A DNA stretch of 64,000 nucleotides from Eubacteriaceae bacterium ES3 (GTDB lineage: Bacteria > Bacillota > Clostridia > Eubacteriales > Eubacteriaceae). The position numbers were made by a program, and so were the translations under genes. Under the pieces are notes generated by a model. That model saw nothing but the letters and a program-made list of their open reading frames with translations, was not told the origin of the DNA and made no database searches. Of the stretch, positions 14,736-38,313 are shown one piece after another. Each line of letters begins with the position of its first letter. Position 1 is the stretch's first letter. Location of the stretch: the NCBI GenBank assembly GCA_030586155.1, contig CP130741.1, positions 1,048,680 to 1,112,679 on the forward strand, read 5' to 3'.

Positions 14736-14750
14736 ATAAGGAATCTTAGA

Positions 14751-14776
14751 ATCGGCATGAGAATGCCGATTTTTTT
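14751..14776 (+). terminator. Terminator after tRNA-Leu
   Basis: ATCGGCAT pairs with ATGCCGAT around GAGA and is followed by T residues. Confidence 0.85.
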
Positions 14777-14786
14777 CGTGAAACAA

Positions 14787-14866
14787 CGAGCCATGCGGCT
14801 CGATAAAAAAAGAGAAAAGCTAAAAATCAAGCTCGCTTGGTTTTTAGCTTTTCTCTTTTTTTATCG
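14787..14866. repeat. Pair of hairpins including a 31-bp stem-loop
   Basis: CGAGCC and GGCTCG form a short stem (14787-14802). The next hairpin has arms 14801-14831 and 14836-14866, 31 bases each with a single T-G mismatch and a CTCG loop. The stem contains runs of A and T. Farther right, 14901-14924 offers another imperfect stem (GGTG..GCT.CACC). It is too long and perfect for an ordinary terminator and may be a mobile palindromic element or a very strong bidirectional terminator. Confidence 0.7.
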
Positions 14867-14933
14867 AAGACAGGAGCCATCTGGCGACTGACGCGACGAG
14901 GTGGAGCGTGAGCTACACCGAGTGCCGCATTAA

Positions 14934-18016: not shown

Positions 18017-18967
18017 ATGAATTATATTTTGGAAATCAATGCTTTCGAACGATGGATCGAAACAAATCACTTGTCAGCTACATCCCAATTGTTATGGTAC
18101 AGATTAGTGGCACTTTTCAATCGGTGCGGTTAGGCTGAGTGGGTTACAGTAGATAACTAGCGTCTGATGGCCCTGATCCAATGTAAGTCAGAAAAAACAT
18201 TTATCTGAGCCAGAGATGATTTGATTAATAATGGTTGGTTTGAATATCAGAGAGGGAAAAAGGGTAGCCCTAACTGGTATAAAATGATCAGTTTTAAAGA
18301 CCAAAACACTGTAAATAATACAGTGAATTCGATAGTAGATATGACAGTAAATATGGGAGTGTTTACGACAGTGGGAATTCAGGATAAGGTACTCAGGTCT
18401 GCACGCTTTGACTTATCAGATGGCAGCAATTTAAAAAATATGGAGATGGCCCAAATCTATGCCGACAAGTTCAGGAAAGAATTTTTTCAGAAGGGAAGTG
18501 GCATGATCTTCTGGGGTAATTTCGGCAGGGGCAAAAGTTATACCGCGGCCTGTATTGCCAATGCTCTGATTGACAAAGGGATTCCAGTTCTGATTACAAG
18601 CTTCACCAGGCTCAGCCAGCAATTATATTCAGAGCAGGATAAAAACGCCTTTCTTGCAGCCCTGAATCGATACGATCTTTTGAACATTGATGATCTGGGC
18701 GTAGAGCGAAAAAGCGACTATATGCTGGAGAATATGTTTAATGTCATAGATGAGCGCTACAAAAGTAATAAACCAATGATTATTACCACTAATCTGACCC
18801 TGGAACAACTGGAAAATCCGTCATCGCTGGCACTGAGTCGCCTGTATGAAAGGATTCTGGAAAAGTGTACGCCGCTGGTCTTTGATGGGGAAAATTTGCG
18901 GGATGACAAGCGGGTACAAAATTTTGAAGAGGCTAAAAAGGTGTTTAGGGGGAGAGGAATAAATTGA
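18017..18967 (+). pseudogene. Decayed replisome-organiser / DnaC-like helicase loader
   Basis: One reading frame runs from ATG 18017 to 18967 but is broken by three stops (codons 39, 48 and 64). The first part (MNYILEINAFERWIETNHLS...LLWYRLVALFNRCG) resembles the DnaD-like winged-helix N terminus of phage and plasmid replisome organisers. The second part, open from 18221, is a DnaC-type AAA ATPase with Walker A WGNFGRGKSYTAACIA and Walker B LLNIDDLGVERKSD. These domains are normally separate genes, so a deletion may have fused them before the stops arose. It marks an old integrative or phage element. About 400 bp of it recurs beyond the CRISPR array. Confidence 0.75.
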
Positions 18968-19397: not shown

Positions 19398-19425
19398 TTG
19401 ACAAGTCATATTTTAGGAGTATTAT
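19398..19425 (+). promoter_or_regulatory. Predicted promoter of the cas operon
   Basis: TTGACA (19398-19403) and TATTAT (19420-19425) are separated by 16 nt, upstream of cas6. It overlaps the start of a longer cas6 frame, which supports the later start at 19487. Confidence 0.55.
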
Positions 19426-19486
19426 GAAAGTAGAATTTTATAATAAAATTATTAAAATGGGTAGAAAAAATAAAGGAGGTGATTTT

Positions 19487-20209
19487 ATGAGGCTAAAACT
19501 TTTATATGAATTCGAACATCCTGAAATCCCAGTTAGTTATCGAAGGGCCATTATGTCATTCATAAAAAAAGCATTATGCGAATATGACCAAAAGCGTTTT
19601 GACAATTTATATGACCAATTTGCTTGTAAGCGCAAAAGTTACTCATTTGCGGTTTCGTTGCCACCAGGTTCACGTTTTCTAAAAGATCGGATTCATTTAA
19701 ATGGTAATAGTGTGACACTCTATCTTTCAACAGCAGATTTTTCAGACCTGATTCTTTTGTACAATGCTTTTATGGAACAAGTCAACAAGCCATTTTTGTT
19801 TCCGCTGCAAAACAAATTGACACTAAAAAAAATTGATAATATTAATGTGCAGCCTATATTTGCAGATTCAGTCGATATCAGAATGCTTTCCCCGTTGGTT
19901 CTACGAAATCATGATCGGGAAACAAACAAAGATCAGTATGTGATTTTTAGTGATTCAAATTTTAACGAACAATTTAAATCGGTAACGTCGAATATGTTGA
20001 AGGACATGCAAATGAATTACGATAGCGAAAGCTTGATGATCGAACCAGTCCAGGCGAAAAAAACAGTAATTTCTGAATTTGATACCTGTTTTGCTGTCAG
20101 CATTGGGAATTTCAGGCTTAGCGGAGATCCAAAATTATTGACCTTTTTGCAGTATTCAGGTGCTGGGGTGAGACGTTCTCAAGGCTTTGGATTATTTAAA
20201 GTATTATGA
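19487..20209 (+). CDS. cas6: CRISPR RNA endonuclease Cas6 (type I-B)
   Basis: A 240-residue RAMP-fold protein that cuts the long repeat transcript into crRNAs and stays on the 3' handle. The N terminus MRLKLLYEFEHPEIPVSYRR is typical. The C-terminal glycine-rich loop GAGVRRSQGFGLFKVL is the Cas6 signature. ATG 19487 follows a strong AAGGAGG. An alternative ATG at 19424 would add 21 residues but overlaps the -10 box. It is the first gene of an eight-gene operon ordered 6-8-7-5-3-4-1-2. Confidence 0.92.
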   Translation: MRLKLLYEFEHPEIPVSYRRAIMSFIKKALCEYDQKRFDNLYDQFACKRKSYSFAVSLPPGSRFLKDRIHLNGNSVTLYLSTADFSDLILLYNAFMEQVNKPFLFPLQNKLTLKKIDNINVQPIFADSVDIRMLSPLVLRNHDRETNKDQYVIFSDSNFNEQFKSVTSNMLKDMQMNYDSESLMIEPVQAKKTVISEFDTCFAVSIGNFRLSGDPKLLTFLQYSGAGVRRSQGFGLFKVL

Positions 20210-20223
20210 AAGGAAGGTTTTAA

Positions 20224-21921
20224 ATGTCAAAAGATTGGACATTATTCAGGACGAATGATTTCATCCAGAATGCCGGAATTGTCGGTTTGATAGGCCTTCT
20301 TGAACATCAGGGGGCTGTTGAAGGACAAGATTATTGTATTGATGGATCTATCTTAAATGTTGCGACGGACTATTTGATGTCGTTAGATTTAGCGAAAGCA
20401 TATATGAATGTATTAATCGACAAGTATTATGATGAAACCCACCATGCGATTGCGCTTAAAAAAATTGGCCAGCTTCGTTATCTGCTAGAAAATCAAGAAG
20501 AAAAAGATATTAAAGAAAAGCAGAAAGACATTATTGACTATCTTCATGATAAACTTTCTTCTGCAAGCTATCAGTCGGGTTATGCTATTCTTGAGGGACA
20601 AAATATTGAAACGCATATCGTGGCGGTGGTTAAAAAATTAAAAAAAGAAAATGATAATGAGAAAATCCTACAGCTTTTAGATGAGTTAGAAGCAGAACTG
20701 AATAAGCCGCTAGTAAAGGACATATTGGCTTTTAAGTCAATTATTTATGCAAGGATTAATATGTTTTGGGAGAATAAAGCTTTTTTACTGCCAGTAAATT
20801 CAAAAAAGCAGTTTGAAGAAGTTTTTTCTAAAGATTTTTCTGAACCGTTGAAAACTTATATTCAAAATGACAAAAAGAGAAAAGACCATTGTATTGCATG
20901 TGGAAATCCGATCAGCGGGTCAAAAGAAAAAATATCCATTGCCTTTATGAAGGATATGGCCGATGATCTTACTCGAAAAACATCTGCTTTCTGGAATTTT
21001 AAGGTTGATGCTTTCATTTGCCCCTGTTGTGCTTTTTTATATGCGCTGGTGCCTCTGGGCTTTGTGGCAATCGGCAATAATATGGTTTTTGTCAATACCA
21101 ATTCCAATATTGAATTTCTTTTGCAGAGCAATCGAGCGGATAAACTGAAAACGGAGAAAGAAGAGCCCAATAAAAAAATAAGTCTTCTATACAATGTGAT
21201 TATTGCCAATCTTATTAAAAAGACTAAATTAAAGGCCAGCAATATTCAAGTTATCACACGCAGGAAGTTTGAAGAACGGTATGATTTGAATATTATTGGA
21301 AAAGATGTGATTGAGATTTTGTTAAACGCTGGCCAACAAATTGAAAATCTGATGAAGTGGCATGTTAAGGATGGTGATCACTATATTAATGTTTATGAGC
21401 AAACGATTGAAAACGTTATCAATCATCAAAACCAATATTTGCTGATCAATCGTTTGTTTCGTTTGAATCTTGATCAGCTAAGCATTGTTTTTGCAATTTA
21501 CAATGTATTAATGGTTCAGCTTTACCAATGTAATTATAGAAAAAGAGAAGGAGGGAAGGAAATGAATAAAGCCAGATTGAGTTTTGCTAGTAAAGGTGGA
21601 AATGATTTACGCCGGACAATTCTTAACTACAGCGGTACAGGTAGTGAGAATCAGGATGAATCCGATAATAAATTAAGAGGAACGGTCTATCAGCTATTAA
21701 ATGCATTGCAGGTAGGTGATCAGTTTGCTTTCATGAATATGCTTCTAAGGCTAAGTACCTCATATAATATGAAATTGCCATCTGTTTTTATGGATGCATT
21801 TCTATCCGAAGAGGATTTCCTTAATATTGCCTATGCTTTTTTAGTCGGTCTGAAAGGCGGCTATTATGAAAAAGGCAAAAATGAAACAATGGATGAACAG
21901 AATCAAGAAATGAAAGGATAA
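20224..21921 (+). CDS. cas8: Cascade large subunit Cas8 (CXXC-CXXC / Cst1 type, subtype I-B)
   Basis: A 565-residue large subunit of the type I-B effector complex, which recognises the PAM and helps unwind target DNA. It carries the two pairs of cysteines that name the CXXC-CXXC family: HCIACGNPI near residue 224 and CPCCAFLYALVPLGF near 263. These probably form a zinc site. It starts 14 nt after cas6 with AAAGGAAGG upstream. The C-terminal ~119 residues are preceded by an internal ribosome binding site and may also be made separately as Cas11. Confidence 0.88.
   Translation: MSKDWTLFRTNDFIQNAGIVGLIGLLEHQGAVEGQDYCIDGSILNVATDYLMSLDLAKAYMNVLIDKYYDETHHAIALKKIGQLRYLLENQEEKDIKEKQKDIIDYLHDKLSSASYQSGYAILEGQNIETHIVAVVKKLKKENDNEKILQLLDELEAELNKPLVKDILAFKSIIYARINMFWENKAFLLPVNSKKQFEEVFSKDFSEPLKTYIQNDKKRKDHCIACGNPISGSKEKISIAFMKDMADDLTRKTSAFWNFKVDAFICPCCAFLYALVPLGFVAIGNNMVFVNTNSNIEFLLQSNRADKLKTEKEEPNKKISLLYNVIIANLIKKTKLKASNIQVITRRKFEERYDLNIIGKDVIEILLNAGQQIENLMKWHVKDGDHYINVYEQTIENVINHQNQYLLINRLFRLNLDQLSIVFAIYNVLMVQLYQCNYRKREGGKEMNKARLSFASKGGNDLRRTILNYSGTGSENQDESDNKLRGTVYQLLNALQVGDQFAFMNMLLRLSTSYNMKLPSVFMDAFLSEEDFLNIAYAFLVGLKGGYYEKGKNETMDEQNQEMKG
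21562..21921 (+). CDS. cas11: Predicted Cas11 small subunit from internal start in cas8
   Basis: Inside cas8 and in frame, AAGGAGGGAAGGA (from 21549) lies just before ATG 21562. Translation from there gives a 119-residue helical protein (MNKARLSFASKGGNDLRR...) matching the usual Cas11 size. Internal translation of Cas11 from cas8 is established in other type I-B, I-C and I-D systems. No separate cas11 gene is present in this operon, so this start likely supplies the small subunit. The evidence here is the unusually strong internal Shine-Dalgarno only. Confidence 0.7.
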   Translation: MNKARLSFASKGGNDLRRTILNYSGTGSENQDESDNKLRGTVYQLLNALQVGDQFAFMNMLLRLSTSYNMKLPSVFMDAFLSEEDFLNIAYAFLVGLKGGYYEKGKNETMDEQNQEMKG

Positions 21922-21926
21922 TAATT

Positions 21927-23496
<1,570 letters not shown>

Positions 23497-23563
23497 TACA
23501 GTAGCGTTAAGAGGGGTCTCTTAACGCTGTTTAAACAGTTGAAATTACCAGAAAGGATTGCAA

Positions 23564-25795
23564 ATGGAATATCTGGCTAAATCAAAACCACAGGAAACAT
23601 TAGCGGAACATACCCAAAATGTGTTAAATCAGTATGATTTGCTGATGTCACTTTATGGGGAGTTGTTTACGAAGACAGAGAAAGAATTAATTCGAACGGC
23701 CTGTGAAATTCATGATTACGGAAAAATCAACCTTGCTTTCCAAAGTAAAATAAAAGGAGACAAAAAATATTCGGATGAAATCCCTCATGGCTTTTTAAGT
23801 GTACTTTTTCTCAATAGAAAAGAGATCGAGAATAGCTATGGGAAAGATTATCTTTTTGCTTTAATCACAGCGGTCTATTATCATCATGTTCGCTCTGAAA
23901 AAATAACTGACAACCACCAGTTTAAAGAAACAGCCAACAAATTTTTGACGGATGAAACCATTCTTGATTATTTTGGAAAAGAAATGAATTTGTCTTTTAT
24001 AAATCGTAAAAAGCGGATTTTTGATCTGGATGAAGGCAGTGTTCATCAATTTGATGAAAAGAATTATCAGCGCTGGATCTACTACCTGGTGATCAAAGGG
24101 ATTCTTAATAAACTGGATTATGCAGCCAGTGGTTACTATCGGAGTGAACAAAGGCTGGATCAGGCAGAAAAAGCGGTTACGACTTGCGTGCAGGATTTTT
24201 TTAATGAGAATCCGGATATAAAAGGTCTTTTGCCGGCACAAGCTTTTATGGCCGAGAATTGTGACCAGAATTTAATTGTGATTGCCCCAACCGGGTCTGG
24301 AAAAACGGAAGGGGCTCTGTTTTGGCTGAATAATGCGAAAGGATTTTATACGCTACCGATGAAAGTGTCGGCCAATGCTATTTATGAAAGAATTAAAGAT
24401 ACGTATGATTTTAAAAAAGTATCACTACTGCATTCAGACGGTTTGGCTTTTTTTCTAAAAAACAGAGAAAGTGCGGATGAAGATCTGTTTATCCGCTATA
24501 CAGAAGTGAAGCGTCTGTCTTCACTACTAACAGTGTGTACTATCGATCAATTGTTTAAGTTTGTTTTCAAAAGTCCAGGGACAGAAATTTTTCCGGCAAC
24601 GCTTCGTTATTCGAAACTGATCATCGACGAATTACAGATGTATTCGCCGGAAATTATCGCCTTTATTCTGTATGGTTTGAAAATTATTAACGATTTGGGT
24701 GGAAAATTCCTGATTATGACAGCCACCTTACCTCCTTTTATAATCCAGTTGATGAGAGAACAATCCATCCAATTTAAATTTGAGACTTTTGCACAGGGTC
24801 GTTTTTCATATCGACATCGAATTTCATTACGTGAAGGTGAGTTTGATACGCAAATGATTCTAAAAGCTGGCGTAAGCAAAAAAGTTCTGGTGCTGTGTAA
24901 TACCATTAAAAGTGCTCAAAAACTCTATCAGGAGATCAAAGAAAAGGCATCTGTGCCGGTAAAGTTACTGCATTCCGGTTTTATCAAAAAACATCGAAGT
25001 ACATTGGAAGCGGAAATTATCGGTTTTACAGAGAAGTCTCAAGAAAACCAGGAGCCGGGAATCTGGATCAGCAGCCAAATAGTGGAGGCGAGTCTGGATA
25101 TTGATTTTGACATGCTGTTTACAGAGCTTTCTCCAATTGACAGTTTGTTTCAACGTTTCGGACGCTGTTATCGAAGTCGTAATTATGACGGGAAAAAGCC
25201 AAATATCATTATTTTTAAAAATGATAATGGAAGAAAGATTATTTATGATGAAGAAATATATGATCGGACTTATGAAGAATTAAAAAAATGGGAAAACTGT
25301 CTGATAAATGAGGAAGATAAACAAAAAATGATTGAAGCTGTATATGATGAAAAGAAAATTATGGAAACAAACTATTATCAGACCATCAAAAAGACTTTTA
25401 AGATTGTCAAACAGATCATTCCTAATGAGGTGAAATCGGAAAAAGTAAATTATCTCTTTCGGAAGATCAATAGTGTCTCGGTCATTCCCGATTCTGTTTA
25501 CAGGGCCAATCAGGATGAAATAGAAACTTTAAAAGAAATTATCTGTTCACCCGGAGGCAAGGACGGTTATTCAGCAGAAGAAATGATCAAAAAAAGTAGG
25601 GCACAGGATGATTTGAATCAGTTTACGGTCAACATTAATCTCTATCATAAATGGCCGAAATCTATAGATAAAGCTCCAATAAGTCCGCTAATTGATATTT
25701 ACAGAAGTGCTAGCCCGTATGATTTTGATGAAAAAAAGATGACCGGCGGGGGTATTTTCATAAATGAACAGGATGTAAATGAACAGTGTTTGTGA
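23564..25795 (+). CDS. cas3: CRISPR-associated nuclease-helicase Cas3 (HD + SF2 helicase)
   Basis: A 743-residue single-chain Cas3 that shreds target DNA after Cascade binding. The N-terminal HD nuclease shows CEIHDYGKINLAFQSK and YHHVRSE. The helicase has Walker A VIAPTGSGKTEGALFW, the DExH-box variant LIIDELQM, and LIMTATLP. Motif VI is SLFQRFGRCYR. I start at ATG 23564 with GAAAGGA seven bases upstream, not at the TTG touching that site. No inactivating change is visible, so interference is probably functional. Confidence 0.93.
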   Translation: MEYLAKSKPQETLAEHTQNVLNQYDLLMSLYGELFTKTEKELIRTACEIHDYGKINLAFQSKIKGDKKYSDEIPHGFLSVLFLNRKEIENSYGKDYLFALITAVYYHHVRSEKITDNHQFKETANKFLTDETILDYFGKEMNLSFINRKKRIFDLDEGSVHQFDEKNYQRWIYYLVIKGILNKLDYAASGYYRSEQRLDQAEKAVTTCVQDFFNENPDIKGLLPAQAFMAENCDQNLIVIAPTGSGKTEGALFWLNNAKGFYTLPMKVSANAIYERIKDTYDFKKVSLLHSDGLAFFLKNRESADEDLFIRYTEVKRLSSLLTVCTIDQLFKFVFKSPGTEIFPATLRYSKLIIDELQMYSPEIIAFILYGLKIINDLGGKFLIMTATLPPFIIQLMREQSIQFKFETFAQGRFSYRHRISLREGEFDTQMILKAGVSKKVLVLCNTIKSAQKLYQEIKEKASVPVKLLHSGFIKKHRSTLEAEIIGFTEKSQENQEPGIWISSQIVEASLDIDFDMLFTELSPIDSLFQRFGRCYRSRNYDGKKPNIIIFKNDNGRKIIYDEEIYDRTYEELKKWENCLINEEDKQKMIEAVYDEKKIMETNYYQTIKKTFKIVKQIIPNEVKSEKVNYLFRKINSVSVIPDSVYRANQDEIETLKEIICSPGGKDGYSAEEMIKKSRAQDDLNQFTVNINLYHKWPKSIDKAPISPLIDIYRSASPYDFDEKKMTGGGIFINEQDVNEQCL

Positions 25796-25807
25796 GGTCA
25801 AGACGCG

Positions 25808-26293
25808 ATGAAAGAAATTACAGGAGTGATGGTTTCATACAGTTATTTGTGTTTGCGAAAGTTGTGGCTCTTTTCAAATCACCTAAATATGGAAGAGAAT
25901 CATGAAAATGTCACTATTGGTAAACTATTGGACGAACATACCTATGAAAGGGAAAAGAAACATTTTTCAGTAGATGGGATCAACATCGATTTTATAAAGA
26001 AAAATGTGATCTATGAAATTAAAAAAAGCGATGCTGAACTGGAAATGGCGGTGAATCAGGTAAAATATTATCTGTATACGCTTCAGAAAAGAGGAATGGT
26101 CGTAAAATATGGGGTGATCAATGTCCCGACTAAAAAAATGACGAAAAACGTTGAGCTGACTAACAATGACATAATTGTGATCGAAGAGCGGCTGGCGTTT
26201 ATACGGGAAATTATTGACAATTCGGTTATTCCTGAAAGAAAAAGAATTCCTGCCTGTAAAAGTTGTGCATATTTTGAATTGTGTTTTATTTGA
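25808..26293 (+). CDS. cas4: CRISPR adaptation nuclease Cas4
   Basis: A 161-residue RecB-like 4Fe-4S nuclease that trims prespacers and helps select PAM and orientation with Cas1-Cas2. The cluster cysteines are in SYLCLRKLW near the N terminus and CKSCAYFELC at the end. The nuclease core shows VDGINIDF, VIYEIKKSD and AVNQVKYYLY. It starts 12 nt after cas3 and overlaps the upstream extension of cas1. Confidence 0.92.
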   Translation: MKEITGVMVSYSYLCLRKLWLFSNHLNMEENHENVTIGKLLDEHTYEREKKHFSVDGINIDFIKKNVIYEIKKSDAELEMAVNQVKYYLYTLQKRGMVVKYGVINVPTKKMTKNVELTNNDIIVIEERLAFIREIIDNSVIPERKRIPACKSCAYFELCFI

Positions 26294-26304
26294 GAGGTGA
26301 ATGG

Positions 26305-27297
26305 ATGAATCAGAGTTATTATATTTTTTCCGCGGGTGAATTGAAAAGGAAAGATAATTCATTGGCTTTTCTAAAATCGGATGGTTCAAAAACCGACATT
26401 CCGATTGAGCGTGTCTATGACCTTTATATTTTTGGAGAAATGACCTATAACACAAAACTTTTTAATTTTCTAGCTACGAAAGGGGTATGTGTACACTTAT
26501 TTAATTATTATGATTTTTATACCGGCAGTTTTTATCCGAGGGAACAGCGAAATTCGGGAAAGCTCTTGGTGCAACAGGTCAGTTTTTATACAGATGAAGA
26601 AAAGCGTTTGAAATTGGCAAAAAATTTTATTGAAGCAGGTAGTTATAATATTTTTAGAAACATGCGCTATTATCATACTCGTGAAAAATGTAGTGGTGAG
26701 GCATTGGAAAAAGTTTCTGATTTAAGAAATGAAATTAATGATGCAACAGATATTCATATGTTGATGGGGATTGAAGGAAACATAAGGAAAGTTTATTATG
26801 AAACCTGGACGGATATTTTTTCGAAAGATGTTGAATTTGAAAAAAGAGTGAAGCAGCCACCGGATAACATGGTTAATACACTGATATCATTTCTAAATAC
26901 CATGATGTATACTAAGGTGCTTTCAGAAATATATCAGACCCAATTAAATCCAACAATCAGCTATCTGCATGAACCAGGGGAGAAACGTTTTTCATTAGCA
27001 TTGGATGTGGCAGAAGTATTTAAACCACTACTTGTGGATCGATTGATTTTTTCGCTAATCAATAAAGGTATCATTTCAGATTCTGATTTTTCGAAAGAAG
27101 AAAATTTTCTCCGAATGAAGGAACATACGGTTCAGAAAATTGTGCAGGAATTTGAGAATGAATTAAAGAGAACAATTAAACATAAAAAACTTAATCGTAC
27201 CGTTTCTTATAATCACCTTATTCGCTTGGAATTGTATAAACTAATAAAGCATTTAATAAATGAAAAGTCTTATGAAGGGTTTAAAATGTGGTGGTAG
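26305..27297 (+). CDS. cas1: CRISPR integrase Cas1
   Basis: A 330-residue spacer integrase. The catalytic residues appear as the glutamate in GIEGNIRKVYY, the histidine in YLHEPGEKRFSLALD and the aspartate in LDVAEVFKPLLVDR. Start ATG 26305 fits the family N terminus (MNQSYYIFSAGELKRKDN) and follows GAGAGGTGAATGG. It is intact, so new spacers can probably still be added at the leader end of the array. Confidence 0.95.
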   Translation: MNQSYYIFSAGELKRKDNSLAFLKSDGSKTDIPIERVYDLYIFGEMTYNTKLFNFLATKGVCVHLFNYYDFYTGSFYPREQRNSGKLLVQQVSFYTDEEKRLKLAKNFIEAGSYNIFRNMRYYHTREKCSGEALEKVSDLRNEINDATDIHMLMGIEGNIRKVYYETWTDIFSKDVEFEKRVKQPPDNMVNTLISFLNTMMYTKVLSEIYQTQLNPTISYLHEPGEKRFSLALDVAEVFKPLLVDRLIFSLINKGIISDSDFSKEENFLRMKEHTVQKIVQEFENELKRTIKHKKLNRTVSYNHLIRLELYKLIKHLINEKSYEGFKMWW

Positions 27298-27298
27298 T

Positions 27299-27577
27299 AT
27301 GTACATTGTGCTGGTTTATGATATCAAGTTAAATGAAGGGGGGAGTAGGGTACTGAGAAATGTTTTTAAAAGCTGTAAGAAGTATCTGGTACATTTGCAG
27401 AATTCAGTTTTTGAGGGAGAAGTATCCCGTGATCAGCTTTTAGCGCTCAAGCTGGAACTGAAACAATATTTAAGAGAGGATGAGGATTCTTGTATTATTT
27501 TTAGAGCTAGAAACAATATTTGGATGAATAAAGAGTACCTTACAAATGAGGTGGATAAGAATACACAATTTCTCTAA
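27299..27577 (+). CDS. cas2: CRISPR adaptation protein Cas2
   Basis: A 92-residue ferredoxin-fold partner of Cas1 in spacer acquisition. The N-terminal MYIVLVYDIKLNEGGSRVLR with the conserved aspartate and the LVHLQNSVFEGEV strand are diagnostic. The ATG is one base after the cas1 stop. It is the last gene of the operon and the array begins 163 nt downstream. Confidence 0.95.
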   Translation: MYIVLVYDIKLNEGGSRVLRNVFKSCKKYLVHLQNSVFEGEVSRDQLLALKLELKQYLREDEDSCIIFRARNNIWMNKEYLTNEVDKNTQFL

Positions 27578-27740
27578 AATGCAACTGTCGATGCTTGATA
27601 ATGTAAAAAATATTGGAGACCGACAGATTTTTATGAGAAAACTAATGTTATTGTCTAATGATAAACTTGATATGTGAGGGCAATTGTTATAAGATTTATA
27701 TAAGTAAGAAATATTATTCAGAAAATAAACTAAATGACGG
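27578..27740 (+). promoter_or_regulatory. CRISPR leader
   Basis: This 163-nt AT-rich gap between cas2 and the first repeat has no open frame and sits at the conserved-repeat end of the array. It fits a leader that holds the array promoter and the Cas1-Cas2 integration signal. Its edge with the first repeat is at 27741. Confidence 0.75.
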
Positions 27741-30668
27741 ATTGATAATCGAACCATATTGGAATGTAAAGTCCTGCTCAAGACAGGTAAAAATTTTAAT
27801 CAACTAGATATTGATAATCGAACCATATTGGAATGTAAAGAGAACCTTTAAAGATGTATGAGCTTTAAGTTCTTCATTGATAATCGAACCATATTGGAAT
27901 GTAAAGTTCTGTTTCTGAACGCAATGCAAAGCTTTATTATTGATTGATAATCGAACCATATTGGAATGTAAAGGTGTTATAAAGCAATCGGTAAGGGAAT
28001 TCGATGACAGATTGATAATCGAACCATATTGGAATGTAAAGTGACCTTTAAAGATGTATGAGCTTTAAGTTCTTCCATTGATAATCGAACCATATTGGAA
28101 TGTAAAGTATAACAAAATCGAGATTTGACGCATCACAAAGCCAATTGATAATCGAACCATATTGGAATGTAAAGGTATATAAAGAATTAGTTTGATGTGC
28201 CAATGTGTCAAATTGATAATCGAACCATATTGGAATGTAAAGACATTTTTACGTCTTTTCTTAAAGTGCCCATAGTAATTATTGATAATCGAACCATATT
28301 GGAATGTAAAGTTGGGATCGCAACGTGCTTACTTCCTTTTACACTAGCATTGATAATCGAACCATATTGGAATGTAAAGGATGATATACCAACGGAAGAT
28401 ACTGACCCTGTAGAATATATTGATAATCGAACCATATTGGAATGTAAAGGAAGTAGTTAATAATCGTGAAGAATTAAATCATTGGATTGATAATCGAACC
28501 ATATTGGAATGTAAAGCTATAAAACAGATATTTGCTTGACTCGAATTAAAACATTGATAATCGAACCATATTGGAATGTAAAGCGATTCAAAATCATAGG
28601 ACTTTTTATAATCTTCATATTGATAATCGAACCATATTGGAATGTAAAGCTTCGATTAGACGGAGATGCTTATGAAGTCAACGACATTGATAATCGAACC
28701 ATATTGGAATGTAAAGTCCATCGACACATAGCCGTCATTTTCTTGTCTTGCTATTGATAATCGAACCATATTGGAATGTAAAGTTCTTAAGACCGTATTT
28801 TGCCATAAAATCTGTTTTTATTGATAATCGAACCATATTGGAATGTAAAGTAAAATCTGTTTTTTAATGGGTATTCGGATTTCGGTATATTGATAATCGA
28901 ACCATATTGGAATGTAAAGAATATCAACAGTTTTTCGTTTATACATTGTTTTCGCCATTGATAATCGAACCATATTGGAATGTAAAGAAAAAAGTTGAAG
29001 CAATAGCAGGTGTCGATGATATAATTGATAATCGAACCATATTGGAATGTAAAGTATAATTCATCAGAGAAAACAGGATTAAAAACAATATTGATAATCG
29101 AACCATATTGGAATGTAAAGGCAGATTTAATATACCTTATGGGATTATTAGCTTCTATTGATAATCGAACCATATTGGAATGTAAAGTGATATGGACAGG
29201 TGGCAGCTGTTTAAAGATTACTGTATTGATAATCGAACCATATTGGAATGTAAAGTTAAACTTTCAATATGTATCAATGTCAATCGGTATTAATTGATAA
29301 TCGAACCATATTGGAATGTAAAGAAAATACGATGAGCGTTTAGAGCTGAAAATCGTTAAATTGATAATCGAACCATATTGGAATGTAAAGATAGCTGGGA
29401 CTTGCGTAAGTGATTGTGAACTATGCTATTGATAATCGAACCATATTGGAATGTAAAGCAAGATTACCATTATGGCGAGGATTGGTTAGCTTATCATTGA
29501 TAATCGAACCATATTGGAATGTAAAGTTAATTCAAGTACCCATAATCATCGTATTCAATCCGCATTGATAATCGAACCATATTGGAATGTAAAGTGATCT
29601 GGCAAACTTCTCAACTTCTCTGGAATACTCATTGATAATCGAACCATATTGGAATGTAAAGAAAGCTTCGTGACACTCTCCGCATTATCAATAATCAATT
29701 GATAATCGAACCATATTGGAATGTAAAGGAGAATTAGGTAATGGGTCCAGATATGGAGAGATTGATTGATAATCGAACCATATTGGAATGTAAAGAGTCA
29801 AAAAGACGATTTAGAAACACAAGTTAATAACATTGATAATCGAACCATATTGGAATGTAAAGTCCAAAATGTCCCCTGATTATCAGAATGCTAGGTTGAT
29901 TGATAATCGAACCATATTGGAATGTAAAGATGTCAATGATTAACAAGGCACTCATTGAAGATTTTCATTGATAATCGAACCATATTGGAATGTAAAGTGT
30001 ATGATTGATTATATTGATAAAATGCATCTTGTTCATTGATAATCGAACCATATTGGAATGTAAAGCACTGTACGTTGAAGCACTCCAAAATCTCCCTATT
30101 GCTGATTGATAATCGAACCATATTGGAATGTAAAGGAATACCAGGTTGATATAATGATTCAAACCGTATTCATTGATAATCGAACCATATTGGAATGTAA
30201 AGGCTTAATCATCTGCAGGTCTGTTTCCAAAAGCTTCGATTGATAATCGAACCATATTGGAATGTAAAGCTTAGTCACCCAAGTGATTGCAATAATGTCA
30301 AAGGCTATTGATAATCGAACCATATTGGAATGTAAAGATGATTGTCTCGTACAGTAAAGCTGCCCCTTCAAGAGATTGATAATCGAACCATATTGGAATG
30401 TAAAGTCCTCAAATTCGAGCTTAATTTCCCATACTTCTCATTGATAATCGAACCATATTGGAATGTAAAGTAATAAATTAGGAGTAGCCGACATCGATTC
30501 ACAATTATTGATAATCGAACCATATTGGAATGTAAAGCGCCACCACAAAACCCATTCTTCGATATTGGAATAATTGATAATCGAACCATATTGGAATGTA
30601 AAGAAAGAACCAAAAATTGATAAAAACGAGTATATCCATTGATAATCGAACCATATTGGAATGTAAAG
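27741..30668 (+). CRISPR. CRISPR array, leader-proximal part (44 repeats, 43 spacers)
   Basis: I count 44 copies of a 31-base repeat (30 if the invariant first A is not counted). It begins ATTGATAATCG and ends TTGGAATGTAAAG, with a repeat-to-repeat distance of 65-70 nt and spacers of about 34-39 nt. All copies here appear identical. Direction follows from the cas operon and leader on the left. Spacer 11 recurs in the second part. Spacers 2 and 5 share a 32-nt core, and spacers 16 and 17 overlap by 14 nt. The part ends abruptly at a transposon inserted in the following spacer. Confidence 0.98.
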
Positions 30669-30842
30669 TTTCACTATCTGTAAATTTTCACATTATTTCG
30701 GACTGAATTAGTCACAATAAATCGGATGAAAAAGGAAGAAATAATGCGAAAATAATGGCTTATTAAGAATATAAATCTCGTTTTTAATCACATAATCACG
30801 TTCCATTTTTCCAGAAAAAAAGGGAGATAACGCTGTCAGGCG

Positions 30843-31643
30843 TTAAATCCCGGCTTCTGCCGAAGCGGCAAAAACAATCTCTTCATCGATGAGATCAGTT
30901 TGCTTTTGAAAGGCGAGAATCAGACATTGGGTAACGAGATTGCCGACTAATCGAGGATAACCGCCAGTCGAAGACGAAATAGCTGCATAAGCATTCTCGT
31001 TGATCAGATTTCGTGAAACACCGGCATGTTTAAAGCGGTGTTTGATATAGTCTCTGACCTCATCCGGTGTCAGTGGTGAAAAATGAAAACGGGTCACCAG
31101 CCGCTGATCCAGCGAACGGTTCTGGTTTAAAGCCAGGCGGTTGGCCAGCGTTGGTAAACCGGTGAGTATCAGAATAAAAGGATTGCGTTTGTCCATGTCA
31201 AAGTTAAAAATGATGCTCAGATCGTGAAGAAACTGAGCTGAAGCCGACTGCATCTCATCGAGGATAAAGACAGGCGTGATGCGGCGCTTATCATAAAGAT
31301 CGATAATCGCGTTCTGAATCTGAAAGAACAGCTCCACTTTGCGGAATTTCGGCTGTTCCCCGAGCGAAAAGGCCAGACCCCGGTAAAAGTCCATAGTTGT
31401 TCCGGAAGACATCGGGAAATACATGACCTTATATAAGGACGGATTCAAATTGTCGGCAAAGACCCGCAGGGTCGATGTTTTACCAACCCCGGGGTCACCG
31501 GTAATCAGACCAAAACCTTTGGTGGTTTTGAGATAATCCAGTCGGGCCAGAACTTCCCTGTAAGCTTCGGACTGAAAGAGCATCGATGAATCAATGCTTT
31601 TGTCAAAGGGTGCCTGCCGGAACCCGAAAAATGATTTATACAT
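30843..31643 (-). CDS. ExeA/TniB-like AAA ATPase of the transposon
   Basis: A ~266-residue ATPase with Walker A ITGDPGVGKTSTLRVFA, Walker B VFILDEMQSAS and an arginine-rich NRSLDQRLVTRFHF sensor segment. Proteins of this kind (IstB, TniB, MuB, TnsC relatives) choose target DNA and activate the transposase. I take ATG 31643, which overlaps the end of the transposase gene by 8 nt; a GTG three codons earlier is possible. It is the last gene of the element. Confidence 0.85.
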   Translation of the reverse strand: MYKSFFGFRQAPFDKSIDSSMLFQSEAYREVLARLDYLKTTKGFGLITGDPGVGKTSTLRVFADNLNPSLYKVMYFPMSSGTTMDFYRGLAFSLGEQPKFRKVELFFQIQNAIIDLYDKRRITPVFILDEMQSASAQFLHDLSIIFNFDMDKRNPFILILTGLPTLANRLALNQNRSLDQRLVTRFHFSPLTPDEVRDYIKHRFKHAGVSRNLINENAYAAISSSTGGYPRLVGNLVTQCLILAFQKQTDLIDEEIVFAASAEAGI

Positions 31644-32895
31644 GAGGAACACCGCCTAACGTGCTGTAGCTGATAACATTGTTATTGCGTTTGGCAATGG
31701 CATTGTCCGCCATGATGACTTTTTTGCAGGTAAGAATCCGGACACTGTTTTCATAAAGATAGATCTCATCAGGGCATTCATTGGGATAGCGGATATCCAC
31801 GCTCTTGCCGATAAACATTGGCGAAGCTTCGAAAAGGGCGTTGTGCAGCGAAATGGTGGCATCCGACTTGACCTTTCTGGTTGCCCGGATCAGAAAGGCT
31901 TCATCAATGATCCGGGGATCAGAGAAATGTTTGATTCGGTCGCTCCCCCGCATATAAAAGACCATCGGTGCTTCATTGAGACTTGAATGAAGCTTATGAT
32001 GATAATCCCGGGCCAGCCAGGCCTCAAAGCGCTGGTTGAGGACATCCAGATCCATCAGGTCGGAATCCGTCAAAAGCGGATAAAAACGACTGCGGACGGT
32101 TTTGAAAAAGCGCTCGATTTTGCCTTTGCTTTTGGGATCGTAAGGTCTGGTATTGACCAGTGCAATGCCCAGAGTGGCACAGGAAGTATTCAGTTGGTGA
32201 GAACGGAAAATCTTGCCATTATCAGCATAAAGCATGGTGGGCTTGCCACAGGTAAGTAAAGCAGATTTAAGGACATGAAGGAGATCTTCATTCTTTTCAG
32301 CCAGCATGAACTGAGCCCCGGTAATTCGCCGGGAAGCATCATCGATAAAAGCGATCAGATAGGTTTTGCGCTTTTTACCGTTAAGAGTCAGATATGGGCC
32401 GTGGGAAACATCGGTCTGCCACAGGGTGTTGATATCAACATGGGCAAAACGGCGGCGGTCAGCCGTATCCGTCTGGGATGGCTTTAACAGCTGATGTTTT
32501 TTCAGCAGCCGATACACTGTGGAATAGGAACAGTCAGAGCTGGTGAAGTGCCCTTCATGAATGAGCCACTCATGGAACAACTTCACCGATAAATGGATGT
32601 TTTCCGTTCGTAACGTAAGGAGCAGTTTAGTCGATTCCGCTGATAAAGCCCGGGAAGAACCCTTGTCTGTCCGAACCTTGGGCTTGAGCGCATCAAAACC
32701 ATGACGCCGGTACAGACGGAGCCATTCCAGCAGGGTTTTGCGGTTGTAGGTGCGCGTGCCATAATGCGGAACATCATGGGTTTTGGCACTGATCTCATCC
32801 AGATAAGCGGCGTGGGACGAGACGGTATCCGTAAGCAATGGCGCAATCAGGCCATAGCGAAATAAAGCAATCAGTTCTTTGTCTTTTTCAGTCAT
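31636..32895 (-). CDS. DDE integrase-type transposase (rve domain)
   Basis: A 419-residue transposase. The N terminus has helix-turn-helix segments (TYNRKTLLEWLRLYRRHGFDALKP). The catalytic core shows the first aspartate in WQTDVSHGPYL, the second in LYADNGKIFR, and the glutamate in SKGKIERFFKTVRSRF. A Mu-type beta-barrel region follows. ATG 32895 with CGGAGG upstream is preferred over the 78-codon upstream extension. It is intact and operonic with the ATPase. Confidence 0.9.
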   Translation of the reverse strand: MTEKDKELIALFRYGLIAPLLTDTVSSHAAYLDEISAKTHDVPHYGTRTYNRKTLLEWLRLYRRHGFDALKPKVRTDKGSSRALSAESTKLLLTLRTENIHLSVKLFHEWLIHEGHFTSSDCSYSTVYRLLKKHQLLKPSQTDTADRRRFAHVDINTLWQTDVSHGPYLTLNGKKRKTYLIAFIDDASRRITGAQFMLAEKNEDLLHVLKSALLTCGKPTMLYADNGKIFRSHQLNTSCATLGIALVNTRPYDPKSKGKIERFFKTVRSRFYPLLTDSDLMDLDVLNQRFEAWLARDYHHKLHSSLNEAPMVFYMRGSDRIKHFSDPRIIDEAFLIRATRKVKSDATISLHNALFEASPMFIGKSVDIRYPNECPDEIYLYENSVRILTCKKVIMADNAIAKRNNNVISYSTLGGVPHV

Positions 32896-33043
32896 TGTAA
32901 AAAAACCTCCGTTTTTAAAGAATTGAGGTTTTAAGGATCCATAAAACTCAGTAAATAGAGCATAACGGATCAATGGATAAAAGGCAAAGCAAAAGCTCTG
33001 TGGGCTAAATAGTTCTTCAAAAAAATGCGGAAGGATGGTACAA

Positions 33044-33580
33044 TTAATGTGCCATAAATCCTTTCTTAAAATGATCGTGATATCTTTTGCCGAAGATGGG
33101 GGGCTTGCCCACCGAGTAGACCATTTCAAGAAGCTTTATGGCTTTTTTATGCCAAAAATCAGGAAAGTCGATTAAAGGATCATGGCAGATGCGAAAAAAT
33201 TCAATCAGCCGGTTCAGACAAAGTAAAAAACGCCGGGTGATAAAGCGACGATGCTGATGCGCTAAAGTATTGGCATAATGAGCCCCGTTAAAGAAGGCCC
33301 AAAGCAGTTCCAGCAGAAATGGAAGCGCCAGCTGAAATCCTGGATGACAGAAAGAAGGCAGGACACTGACTGTCTTACCGCAATGAATACAGTAATGACG
33401 TTGGACCGGAATGGAGAAGACATCCTCATACCAGATCACATGCCGGTGATAGATACCATGAAGATGAAGTCGATGGCGGGTGTAACAATGTGGACAGCTG
33501 TCAATACGAACTCTTTCAGTGGTGTAGAATTCGGTGATATAATCCAGCGGGTGGTCAGAAAAGTGTTCCAGATGAACCAT
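33044..33580 (-). CDS. DUF6431-like zinc-ribbon protein of the transposon
   Basis: A 178-residue protein with a CPHC...CIHC zinc ribbon in its first 60 residues and a helical remainder (FLLELLWAFFNGAHYANTLAH). AAGGAAG precedes the ATG. Proteins of this kind often precede rve-type transposases with ExeA ATPases in Firmicutes. They may help recognise DNA ends, but their function is not established. The family name is from memory. Confidence 0.65.
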   Translation of the reverse strand: MVHLEHFSDHPLDYITEFYTTERVRIDSCPHCYTRHRLHLHGIYHRHVIWYEDVFSIPVQRHYCIHCGKTVSVLPSFCHPGFQLALPFLLELLWAFFNGAHYANTLAHQHRRFITRRFLLCLNRLIEFFRICHDPLIDFPDFWHKKAIKLLEMVYSVGKPPIFGKRYHDHFKKGFMAH

Positions 33581-33734
33581 GGTTTGTGCTTCCTTAAAGT
33601 GACTAATGATTAATCATTATACCATAATTGAAAAGCCAGGTTTGCCGGAATAATTTGATTAGTTCAGGGCTCTTTTGACATTTATAATTTGCTAATTAAC
33701 AACTATCCGGTATGTGTTCTGTCGGTCGTCTGCC

Positions 33735-36110
33735 ATTGATAATCGAACCATATTGGAATGTAAAGGGAAAAAGGAAGCCCTTCAAGGAAACGGTGGAATC
33801 CATTGATAATCGAACCATATTGGAATGTAAAGTTTATCTTCATGAATAGAAAAATGGATTCTTCTATCATTGATAATCGAACCATATTGGAATGTAAAGC
33901 CAACAAGCTCATCTATTATTGACCCAAAACTTGAATTGATAATCGAACCATATTGGAATGTAAAGATATTTATTAAAGAGGTATAAACATGGACCAGGCC
34001 AATTGATAATCGAACCATATTGGAATGTAAAGAACGATTATATGGAACTGGGAAACCACTCGGAATTATTGATAATCGAACCATATTGGAATGTAAAGAT
34101 GATTACGATCCAATCTCTGAATACTGGGAGTTAAATTGATAATCGAACCATATTGGAATGTAAAGCGCTACGGAGTTGGCGGCCTTGATTTATCTAATAC
34201 GATTGATAATCGAACCATATTGGAATGTAAAGCCTGATCCGGTACTTGAACAAATAGAACGACTTCTTATTGATAATCGAACCATATTGGAATGTAAAGT
34301 TTGATTCGGTATCAATATCAGCAGCACCAAGCGAATTGATAATCGAACCATATTGGAATGTAAAGTCCAGCATGTTGGCCAGCTGATTCCAGATGGTTGC
34401 ATTGATAATCGAACCATATTGGAATGTAAAGGAAAATTGATGGAGCAGTGGCCATGATTATTGCCATTGATAATCGAACCATATTGGAATGTAAAGGAAG
34501 TAGTTAATAATCGTGAAGAATTAAATCATTGATTGATAATCGAACCATATTGGAATGTAAAGTCTATCAGTGGTGGTGCTAGGTTGGGTAGATCATCCAT
34601 TGATAATCGAACCATATTGGAATGTAAAGGTATTAACATCGACAGTATTTCCTAGGCCATCATAATTGATAATCGAACCATATTGGAATGTAAAGTAAAT
34701 CATAACCTTTCATCGCATTCCTCGGCTTTCAATTGATAATCGAACCATATTGGAATGTAAAGTTGTGCGAAAAACCCATGTTTGCATAGGTTTCAAGCAT
34801 TGATAATCGAACCATATTGGAATGTAAAGCCTCTCATTACTGTGAAGCAGAAATATCTAACCGCAATTGATAATCGAACCATATTGGAATGTAAAGTTCG
34901 ATAAAGAATGGAGTGCTTACGTTCAAACTTTCATTGATAATCGAACCATATTGGAATGTAAAGTTTTTTATAGAATGGTATAAGTCTAAAACTAATAATA
35001 TTGATAATCGAACCATATTGGAATGTAAAGATAACAGATACATATTCTGATGCATCCGTAAATACTGATTGATAATCGAACCATATTGGAATGTAAAGTA
35101 GAATAAGTCATATTATTTCCCCTCTCTTTAATATATTGATAATCGAACCATATTGGAATGTAAAGTTGTAGGAAGATGATGTATGGATCGAAACGAACGA
35201 TATTGATAATCGAACCATATTGGAATGTAAAGATTGAAGATCTGGTTTATGTGACCGCCACAGGAAGTAATTGATAATCGAACCATATTGGAATGTAAAG
35301 ACTTGTTACTGATCCAAAAACAGCTGAATCATTCAGATTGATAATCGAACCATATTGGAATGTAAAGATTCTCACGCCCTACTGGATTACATGATAAGAT
35401 AAATTGATAATCGAACCATATTGGAATGTAAAGACGCTGTAAGATCATTGCAATTGGATGGCGTTCAGGATTGATAATCGAACCATATTGGAATGTAAAG
35501 CACGTTATAACCATAGGTGTATTAAAGTGTTCACGTAATTGATAATCGAACCATATTGGAATGTAAAGTTAACAGAAAAGAATCATCAGTATATTCATAA
35601 TGAGATTGATAATCGAACCATATTGGAATGTAAAGTCAACACAATGCCAGGTACTGGCAAACGGGGATATGAATTGATAATCGAACCATATTGGAATGTA
35701 AAGTTTGATAGGTAGGCTTTTTAATTAGGGGTTTAACAGTATTGATAATTGAACCATATTGGAATGTAAAGTTTAAGGGCCTCAATTCGCCGTGATTCAT
35801 CAATTGTTATTGATAATCGAACCATATTGGAATGTAAAGTATGTAGAGCCATAACTATAATCAGAAAAACAAGCTAATTGATAATCGAACCATATTGGAA
35901 TGTAAAGTCCCAATGTTTCATCTGCCTGATTTCTTATATCTTCATTGATAATCGAACCATATTGGAATGTAAAGTATATTGTTTTAAAGTCAGGAGATAA
36001 ATATATGCTTGATTGATAATCGAACCATATTGGAATGTAAAGTCCTTATTCTTAAACCGGCGATCAATAGCCAGGGTGGAATTGATAATCGAACCATATT
36101 GGAATGTAAA
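33735..36110 (+). CRISPR. CRISPR array, leader-distal part (36 repeats, 35 spacers)
   Basis: Thirty-six copies of the same repeat in the same direction continue the array beyond the transposon. One copy (35741) has a C-to-T change in the eleventh base. The last copy (36081-36110) has lost its final G. Decay confined to the right end marks the old, leader-distal terminus. There is no leader on the left of this part. Its twelfth spacer (34497-34531) repeats spacer 11 of the first part. Confidence 0.98.
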
Positions 36111-36147
36111 TGTTAATCTACCTCTCCCCATATCAGCCATCCACCTT

Positions 36148-36177
36148 ATTGAAGTCATGCCATATTTGAATGCAAAT
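36148..36177 (+). repeat. Decayed terminal CRISPR repeat
   Basis: After a 37-nt spacer-sized gap, this stretch keeps ATTGA, CCATATT and GAATG of the repeat but differs elsewhere. It is best read as the fossil 81st repeat of the array. The dnaC fragment begins within a few bases of it. Confidence 0.7.
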
Positions 36178-36183
36178 CATTCT

Positions 36184-36592
36184 TGGCCTGTATTGCCAAT
36201 GCTCTGATTGATAAAGGGATTCCAGTTCTGATGACAAGCTTCACCAGGCTCAGCCAGCAATTATATTCAGAGCAGGATAAAAACACCTTTCTTGCAGCCC
36301 TGAATCGATACGATCTTTTGAACATTGATGATCTGGGCGTAGAGCGAAAAAGCGACTATATGCTGGAGAATATGTTTAATGTCATAGATGAGCGCTACAA
36401 AAGTAAATAACCAATGATTATTATCACCAATCTGACACTGGAACAACTGGAAAATCCTTCATCGCTGGCACTGAGCCGCCTGTATGAAAGGATTTTGGAA
36501 AAGTGTACGCCGCTGGTCTTTGATGGGGAGAATTTGCGGGATGACAAGCGGTCTCAAAATTTTGAGCATGTTAAGAAGGTGCTGGGGTCCTA
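36184..36592 (+). pseudogene. Second dnaC-like fragment, frameshifted
   Basis: About 400 bp that align closely, by eye, with the 3' half of the dnaC-like pseudogene at 18548-18955, in the same orientation. It lacks the Walker A region and begins at the GGCCTGTATTGCC that encodes the ACIAN segment. Rearranged bases near 36405 create an early stop, and the end has diverged. It is not functional. Together with the first copy it brackets the CRISPR-Cas locus. The AT-rich stretch 36593-36661 after it shows no gene. Confidence 0.85.
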
Positions 36593-36661
36593 GGAAAAGT
36601 CTTGATTTGTAAGGAAATTAAAATATAATATACATACAATAATTTAAATAATATAAGTTAT

Positions 36662-38313
36662 CCTGAATTATTCATCCAGCAATGAGCAATCTTAAAATCG
36701 AGAAACAACATCTTTTTCAAGGATTAAATACACAGACGGTTGAATTTCAACCCAAAAAGGGTAGACGAATCCCGTAGATGTTATTTTCAAGATTTTAAGT
36801 TGCCAAAGATCATCAGTTACTGTTATTCCAGCTGCGGAAGTTGTCTGATATTTTCTAAAGTTTTATAAAATTCATCTTTGTAGGGACAACTGCTACATAG
36901 CTTGAAATAAATATAGCTTGCTGCTTTTACGATTTTCGAAGCAATTTTTAGCAGCTTTAAACGAATGGTATCGATCTGCATCTTTTTCATGCTCTTCGGC
37001 AGAACCAATCGTCTGAAACAATTAAACAGATTATAAGCCAACACATGCAGTTGCAGTCGGTTGGCATTGACTACTTTGGATTTACTTCCGGTAGAAGCGA
37101 AGCCAAATCCGGACTTGCTTTCTTTGATGAAATTCTCCATAGTGCCTCGGTTACGATAGTATCTTAGGATTTCTTCAGGTTTCAAGTCCATATTGGTTAC
37201 AATGAAGGAATGCTGAATGGTGAACTGATTGCAAGGTTTCTCCACTTTAACAACTACCCTGCGCGGGTACTCCCACTTGCCTGCTTTGTAATAAAACTCA
37301 TCATAGCGGACAATATACTGGGACATATCTTCTTTCATCGCTTCAAATATTTCATGATCAAGATGTTTCGCTTTGTCATTTAAAACACTGTTCGCTTTTA
37401 AACGGATCGCATAAGACACACCATTGGTTTCGCATTGCTTGTACAAATCAGGCGTTGCAAACCCGCTGTCACCACGTAAATACAGCTCTATGTCGGGATA
37501 CTCCGTGAAATATTCATCAAGTAGAGGTTGCATAAAATCAACAACCCCAGTGGAACTGTAGTCCGTTCCATCACGGAGATCTGCTTTCAGCAGATCACCG
37601 GTTAATCCGTCGTAACAAAGTAATGGATGATAACCATGTACCCTGTAATGATAGTTGAAACCTTCACCTTCCTGTTTTCCATAGGTATTCAATAGGGTGG
37701 AGTCCAAATCCAGCAATACCTGTTTTGGACGTTTTATTTTATAAGCAGATGTCCGCATTGCTTTAATGATGGCATCAAATTTTGGCAGCGTTTTATCATC
37801 CATCCGGTTCCAGAATCTTGACAGAGTCGGTTGAGAAGCCAGTGCTTTTTTACCCAGAATGTTTGTAAAGACAGGTTCATTTGTCAATTCATCAGCATCG
37901 TCATCTTCAAAGTAACCAGCAATGATCTGATATACCATTTGGCACAGGTTTTGATCATCCTTATGCTGACGACTGGTCTTCTCATCAGTTTTGAAGTTGC
38001 TGACATGTTTATGGAAACTGAATTTATGAGCAAATTCTTTGATCAGAATCAGTCCGGAATCAGAGGATAAATCACCGCCATCGAAATTTATTTTGATTTT
38101 TTTATTGCTTTCTAACTGAAGTGCATCTAAACTAGACATATGAAGAGTTTCTCCTTTGTTTGGTTTTGGTTTGGTCACTTAAATTTTAACAAAGTTGGAG
38201 CTCTTTTTCTATTGTCTTAGCTTCACTTATTTAGTGAAAAGCAAAAATAATCAAAAACACTGTATCTATGCGGCACAATGTGCCGTTAATTGTATCTGGA
38301 TGAATAATTCAGG
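36662..38313 (-). mobile_element. IS1380-family insertion sequence
   Basis: A 1652-bp element with perfect 18-bp inverted repeats beginning CCTGAATTATTCATCCAG (36662-36679 and 38296-38313). It is flanked by a 5-bp target duplication GTTAT at 36657-36661 and 38314-38318. One transposase gene fills it. Perfect ends suggest a recent insertion. It landed 38 bp before the C_GCAxxG_C_C gene and so may have replaced that gene's promoter. Confidence 0.95.
36823..38139 (-). CDS. IS1380-family transposase
   Basis: A 438-residue DDE transposase. Typical blocks are SDSGLILIKEF near the start, QVLLDLDSTLLNTYG with the first catalytic aspartate, LYLRGDSGFATPDLY with the second, and YRNRGTMENFIKESKSGFG with the glutamate. 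I use ATG 38139, which has AAAGGAG ten bases upstream; the longer frame starts 13 codons earlier. The frame is intact. Confidence 0.93.
   Translation of the reverse strand: MSSLDALQLESNKKIKINFDGGDLSSDSGLILIKEFAHKFSFHKHVSNFKTDEKTSRQHKDDQNLCQMVYQIIAGYFEDDDADELTNEPVFTNILGKKALASQPTLSRFWNRMDDKTLPKFDAIIKAMRTSAYKIKRPKQVLLDLDSTLLNTYGKQEGEGFNYHYRVHGYHPLLCYDGLTGDLLKADLRDGTDYSSTGVVDFMQPLLDEYFTEYPDIELYLRGDSGFATPDLYKQCETNGVSYAIRLKANSVLNDKAKHLDHEIFEAMKEDMSQYIVRYDEFYYKAGKWEYPRRVVVKVEKPCNQFTIQHSFIVTNMDLKPEEILRYYRNRGTMENFIKESKSGFGFASTGSKSKVVNANRLQLHVLAYNLFNCFRRLVLPKSMKKMQIDTIRLKLLKIASKIVKAASYIYFKLCSSCPYKDEFYKTLENIRQLPQLE

Follow-up and report, generated by a model that had tools for sequence, protein, structure and literature searches.

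The window analysed here is the whole 64,000-nucleotide stretch of contig CP130741.1 (positions 1,048,680 to 1,112,679, forward strand) from Eubacteriaceae bacterium ES3, and it holds an array of clustered regularly interspaced short palindromic repeats (CRISPR) interrupted by a transposable element. We are all but certain that one insertion, into spacer 44, has split what was a single type I-B array, at least 81 repeats long and with a leader adjacent to cas2. The split is supported because rejoining the two sides restores a spacer, because 6 bp of target are duplicated at the junctions, and because the other copies of the element, in the same genome and in that of a genus-mate (G017; 4,044,777 bases), have the same ends. 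The locus is laid out as follows.

19424 to 27577, plus strand: type I-B cas operon (cas6, cas8b1, cas7, cas5, cas3, cas4, cas1, cas2), all frames open
27578 to 27740, plus strand: leader region between cas2 and the first repeat, assigned by position, the layout being that of an Acetobacterium woodii-like locus (L366)
27741 to 30668, plus strand: leader-proximal part of the array, with 44 repeats and 43 complete spacers
28450 to 28485, plus strand: spacer 11, which has its protospacer (35 shared bases) in common with distal spacer 56 (34497 to 34531)
30669 to 30678, plus strand: left piece of spacer 44, ending in a target copy, ACTATC (30673 to 30678)
30679 to 33701, minus strand: three-gene transposable element with TG...CA ends; its five copies in the genome are 100% identical and 3,023 bp each
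33702 to 33734, plus strand: right target copy, ACTATC (33702 to 33707), then the right piece of spacer 44 (33708 to 33734)
33735 to 36111, plus strand: leader-distal part of the array, with 36 repeats and the 35 complete spacers between them
36112 to 36147, plus strand: 80th spacer, with 7 of 36 positions mismatched to a genus-mate locus that has a 5' CCA
36148 to 36177, plus strand: decayed 81st repeat, identified by alignment against shuffles

Joining 30669-30678 to 33708-33734 brings together pieces of 10 and 27 nt into a spacer of 37 nt, the second commonest length in an array where spacers run from 34 to 39 nt with a mode of 36 (79 spacers, the rejoined spacer 44 included). A preliminary description of this DNA had proposed just such a restoration to normal size around a 3.0-kb TG...CA element with imperfect inverted repeats and ACTATC on both sides, and both its boundaries and its duplication were reproduced here. 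The two objections it had itself raised, different boundaries in other copies and a separate leader for the right-hand array, find nothing to sustain them: the four further copies in the genome end identically, and the bases up to 33701 are element sequence that recurs unchanged at those four other sites. The event was thus the insertion into spacer 44 of a DDE transposon accompanied by a helper ATPase; it duplicated 6 bp and left 43 whole spacers in the part that the leader feeds and 36, counting the 80th, in the part that has no leader.

That two arrays had been separate all along, with the element lying between them by chance, has as its sole support the present distance between the parts. 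Half-spacers that sum to 37 nt, an exact 6-bp duplication, a repeat and direction common to both parts, and a right part preceded by element sequence instead of a leader leave this explanation with a probability close to nil, and we regard it as refuted by the junctions. No evidence against the split itself turned up. Two observations do weigh against the wider account of one array, its leader and its inserted element: the leader region aligns with the A. woodii-like leader at background level (a score of 31, against a shuffle mean of 29.4 with a standard deviation of 4.6), and the target duplication is missing at one copy of the element in each of the two genomes (L004 and L070).

The 31-nt repeat, ATTGATAATCGAACCATATTGGAATGTAAAG, occurs 80 times between 27741 and 36111, every copy on the plus strand, 44 to the left of the element and 36 to its right. 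Both the shared repeat and the shared direction that were reported earlier are thus borne out, and the repeat is found nowhere else in the complete 3,392,449-base genome when up to 3 mismatches are allowed; its exact sequence has no match in the contig collection searched, which may omit the source genome. The division into 44 and 36 stands, while the earlier totals of 80 repeats and 79 spacers are too low. A further 36-nt spacer follows repeat 80 on its 3' side, and beyond it the decayed 81st repeat aligns with a score that 20,000 shuffles of its sequence never attained, so that the traceable array has no fewer than 81 repeats and 80 spacers. Repeat decay had been placed in the right part only, correctly as to location, and its extent there is slight: among the 80 copies just repeats 75 and 80 vary, by one base each, and the right part is almost free of decay apart from repeat 75 and the last repeats.

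Placement of the leader on the left is supported by the position of cas2, by decay at the right end, by CC flanks 5' of protospacers and by a layout like that of A. woodii; it rests on layout, decay and the protospacer-adjacent motif (PAM) because the leader sequences are not alike beyond shuffles. The earlier view that only the left part has a leader agrees with the same evidence and with the element sequence that precedes the right part. A CC on the plus strand at positions two and three before the protospacer was present for seven of the ten spacers whose matches have no more than 9 mismatches (spacers 8, 26, 31, 53, 72, 79 and 80, but not 27, 54 or 55). For A. woodii the published account gives CCA and GCC as tested 5' PAMs and a leader that drives low-level transcription (PMC10328091). 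Its type I-B locus resembles the one in the window in the order of cas operon, leader and array, in a repeat that is closely similar and runs the same way, and in a CC-type 5' PAM; the repeat printed there occurs 46 times in G017, where locus L366 has the same-direction repeat after cas2 and a leader. The 46 repeats of L366, unlike those in the window, are evenly spaced without an insert, and the A. woodii-like locus has no match to the window's Cas8b.

Assignment of the operon to type I-B follows from the Cas8b1/Cst1 model TIGR01908 (36.7 bits against a cut-off of 19.4) and from PADLOC Cas8b (3.5e-99). The Cas7/Cst2, Cas3 and Cas6 models also exceed their cut-offs; the Cas5t model falls slightly short (92.1 against 96.7), while the general Cas5 model is passed (46.6 against 17.8). 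Adaptation genes adjoin the array: Pfam models for Cas1, Cas2 and Cas4 are above cut-off and PADLOC agrees, whereas the NCBIfam Cas4 model is below (54.1 against 65).

The element itself carries the following features, all on the minus strand.

30828 to 30845, minus strand: terminator-like hairpin past the last gene, by consensus match only
30843 to 31652, minus strand: AAA ATPase gene (Pfam AAA_22)
31636 to 32895, minus strand: DDE transposase gene, 419 amino acids from the ATG common to aligned relatives (rve, Mu-transpos_C)
33044 to 33580, minus strand: gene for a small cysteine-rich protein, with a weak DUF6431 match below the Pfam cut-off
33616 to 33624, minus strand: extended -10-like sequence TGGTATAAT, recognised by eye, facing the element's genes and away from the distal array

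Its terminal inverted repeats are short and imperfect, agreeing at 14 of the 18 outermost positions and at 21 of the outermost 40. Four of the five copies in the genome have 6-bp duplications (ACTATC, ATGTAG, CTACAT and GATAAG) and the fifth has none. G017 contains five full copies at about 88% identity, all with the same ends and four with 6-bp duplications, and in the three of these genus-mate copies that were compared the corresponding -10-like sequence is TGATATAAT. On a contig of Acetobacterium wieringae the transposase is 94% identical over 202 residues; this, together with the A. woodii repeat carried by G017, suggests that the host is an Acetobacterium. Because the five copies in the ES3 genome are identical, the element must have been active recently.

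None of the NCBIfam cut-offs is attained by the transposase. It scores 193.4 bits against the NCBIfam IS481 model, under its cut-off of 224, and IS481 was rejected on that score; IS481 elements are not known to carry an ATPase gene, which the present element has. We likewise rejected IS21, since the IstA score is 56.4 bits against a cut-off of 160 and the ATPase matches AAA_22, not IstB_IS21. A Mu-transpos_C DDE transposase adjoining an AAA ATPase gene between TG...CA ends is the arrangement that we take to define a Tn7/Tn5053-like architecture, and the element has it. Members of that group also make 5-bp target duplications and encode a TniQ or TnsD targeting protein; the duplications here are 6 bp, and the third protein matches DUF6431 only (Pfam E 0.001) and nothing in NCBIfam. 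In architecture the element resembles the TniA/TniB or TnsB/TnsC pairs, and we keep it out of the group because of its 6-bp duplication and the absence of a TniQ match. Compared with solved structures, the transposase gave weak matches to retroviral-type integrase cores (best 6.6e-8) and the ATPase gave nothing at 0.001. Three distant relatives carry, 3' of the ATPase gene and with no more than one mismatch, the motif GGGAAGCAACCCGAG, which is GC-rich and resembles a hairpin (L086 near 3804, L090 near 3884, L091 near 4621), with one extra match on the other strand of L121. The window's element lacks the motif even when 4 mismatches are allowed, and Rfam has no match at it in L086 or L091; it is possibly a transposon non-coding RNA.

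Could the family to which this element belongs seek out CRISPR arrays? A relative with a transposase 46-49% identical lies within a CRISPR repeat in genome G151 (L228), flanked by the duplication AGGTAG, and two more relatives stand against arrays, one by its right end only (L086) and one about 50 bp from a decayed repeat (L091). A first survey covered 104 loci, some of them overlapping, 80 being the best 80 of 365 relatives found, and had arrays at 2 of the 104, both close to the element end. In a sample of 398 genomes (at most 4 candidates scored per genome), 92 places outside the ES3 genome were found and 80 examined: a single one, L228, lay inside an array, and at L214, L246 and L274 the arrays were at least 2.6 kb from the transposase. 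As a control, the unrelated IS66 was drawn from 398 genomes, the same listed genomes (at most 6 candidates scored per genome; 99 places listed, 90 examined). Four of the 90 had an array within 100 bp of the transposase, two of these in G151 and one each in G251 and G109, and two more had arrays at 1.2-1.3 kb.

The comparison, one of 80 family places in or against arrays as against four of 90 for IS66, is a coarse one, for the distance from transposase to end differs between the families, the detector needs three repeats and small contigs cut the flanks. Even so, family-specific targeting shows no excess over the control and we rejected it. The G151 array also carries IS66, no array was found beside the other four copies in the ES3 genome or those in G017, and the two sites share no target sequence, that in the window being in a spacer and that at L228 in a repeat. 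A preference of the family for arrays is accordingly an extremely improbable explanation. Arrays look instead like generic, tolerant landing sites for insertion sequences, in view of one place in 80 against four in 90, and the window's family like no special case. The CRISPR locus at 1500-11750 of L228 is itself an insertion-collecting array: besides the element relative, which lies in a repeat with its AGGTAG duplication, two IS66-like sequences are within it or right beside it.

Insertions that split arrays, even within a spacer, are already published, and the present case is another, clean example. The CRISPR locus of Mycobacterium tuberculosis is of type III-A, and IS6110 is an IS3-family element. 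In this CRISPR (direct repeat) locus it is mostly one IS6110 copy that splits a repeat, with insertions into spacers as well, and recombination between insertion sequence copies deletes spacers (PMC7708916); the ES3 locus differs in having a single copy, and its array rejoins without loss. Xanthomonas citri pv. citri LG097 has an IS21-family-like element in spacer Xcc_18, and the paper that describes it has an insertion in a repeat as well (PMC6889575). The likeness lies in an insertion sequence within a spacer; the family of the element is another one, 4 bp of the spacer were lost there, and it was PCR across strains that brought that case to light. CRISPR-Cas is weakened by insertion sequences that hit cas genes, and the introduction of the paper describing this mentions insertion sequences in CRISPR loci as well (PMC10359306). 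There the cas genes are struck, whereas here all cas genes are open and it is part of the memory that is cut from the leader.

Around the locus, a direct repeat of 397 bp, its copies 95% identical and both from a dnaC-like helicase-loader gene, brackets the whole CRISPR-Cas module (18547-18943 and 36185-36581). The left copy lies in an open frame and the right copy is a fragment starting 7 bases past the decayed 81st repeat; recombination between the two would delete the module. Set beside the finding that the window's Cas8b occurs in none of the 39 other family genomes, this repeat may be a trace of the way in which the locus was acquired. Within 14651-14867 a tRNA-Leu gene is followed by a 68-bp palindrome (94%; 14800-14867), and transposase and dnaC-like genes lie downstream; an integrated island may have its edge here. 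Adjoining the dnaC fragment is a DDE_Tnp_1_4 transposase (36651-38178), which we take to be IS1380-like; the sequence that precedes it is present at seven more sites in the genome at 93% identity or more.

Spacer matches come from searches of 40 family genomes, with loci picked from among the best matches. Ten of 18 named loci had a match at up to 10 mismatches, as had 10 of 12 further stretches; shuffled spacers, run for 20 rounds over those 12 stretches, which exclude the spacer 31 locus, gave no match at 9 or fewer mismatches and four at 10. Among the matches listed, ten spacers are matched at 9 mismatches or fewer in the ES3 genome or related ones, six of them distal. One prophage-like stretch, of which G017 has two copies (L393, L394) and G004 one (L395), is matched at 4-10 mismatches by spacers 53, 54 and 55; in G017 their matches fall in genes that match a major tail protein, a major head protein and a large terminase, respectively. 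The match of spacer 72 falls in an HNH endonuclease gene with a large terminase next to it, that of spacer 79 in a gene for a single-strand binding protein, and those of spacers 26 and 80 in frames resembling phage families of unknown function. A prophage-like stretch of G014 (L397) is matched from both sides of the element, by leader-side spacer 8 (8 mismatches) and by distal spacer 53 (6 mismatches), and L393, L394, L395 and L397 are related to one another. The match of spacer 27 lies in the ES3 genome itself (8 mismatches, no CC flank), and that of spacer 76, at 10 mismatches and without CC, is outside the count of ten. The matched sequences are relatives of the original targets, not the targets themselves. 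A phage collection gave nothing for either array part at E 0.01, and two exact 26-base probes (spacers 11/56 and 2/5) had no match in viral contigs.

Transcripts from the leader would reach the distal part only after running through 3 kb of the element, in antisense orientation to its genes. They would seldom get across, with the consequence that distal CRISPR RNAs (crRNAs) would fall strongly, and spacer 44 would no longer be usable as a guide. Judged from sequence features, such a fall of distal crRNAs is on balance the expected outcome, if far from an assured one. Between 27550 and 36300 terminator-like sites are in excess (12, against 5.2 in shuffles with a standard deviation of 1.8), and two of them, at 31461 and 31697 on the plus strand within the element, face the leader transcript. 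The element's -10-like sequence points inward, and the earlier remark that the element reads away from the distal part is upheld by genes and -10-like sequence alike being on the minus strand.

A promoter at the right end of the element or inside spacers might, on the other hand, keep the distal part expressed, leaving the insertion near neutral for immunity. Three features count against silencing: a weak plus-strand promoter-like site at 33599-33628 (9 of 12 positions, no better than background) could drive transcription into the distal part, where there are several more; some repeats form -35/-10-like pairs with flanking spacer bases; and the distal repeats show no extra decay, being intact save for repeat 75 and the last ones. 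Cryptic promoters within arrays are, moreover, described for Sulfolobales (PMC10883916). However, promoter-like sites across the same region are no more frequent than in shuffles (33, against 38.2 with a standard deviation of 5.0), the element's extended -10-like sequence faces the opposite way, and with five identical copies the insertion may be too young for repeats to have decayed either way. We therefore hold continued distal expression to be rather unlikely, and a strong fall of distal crRNAs to be the better expectation.

The insertion might even act as a trimmer of memory, in which the older half leaves the pool of precursor crRNA and the newest spacers gain a share of effector complexes. 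Leader-side spacers might gain in this way because crRNAs compete with one another, as published (review PMC8047081), but we consider the idea very improbable. If it were true, the old half would stay stored and return on precise exit of the element or with a new outward promoter, and spacer 11, as a recapture of the protospacer of distal spacer 56, would mark lost distal immunity. Spacers 11 and 56, which the element separates and which differ in length by one base, do record one protospacer captured twice. Other spacers overlap too, 2 and 5 by 32 bases and 16 and 17 by 14. As proof of lost distal immunity the 11/56 pair was rejected, since spacers 2 and 5 are both leader-side and repeated capture thus needs no silenced copy.

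The locus is a natural experiment, in which one system with open cas genes has phage-matched spacers on both sides of an insertion. It could test how far transcription from the leader reaches, and whether the removal of old spacers sharpens new ones.

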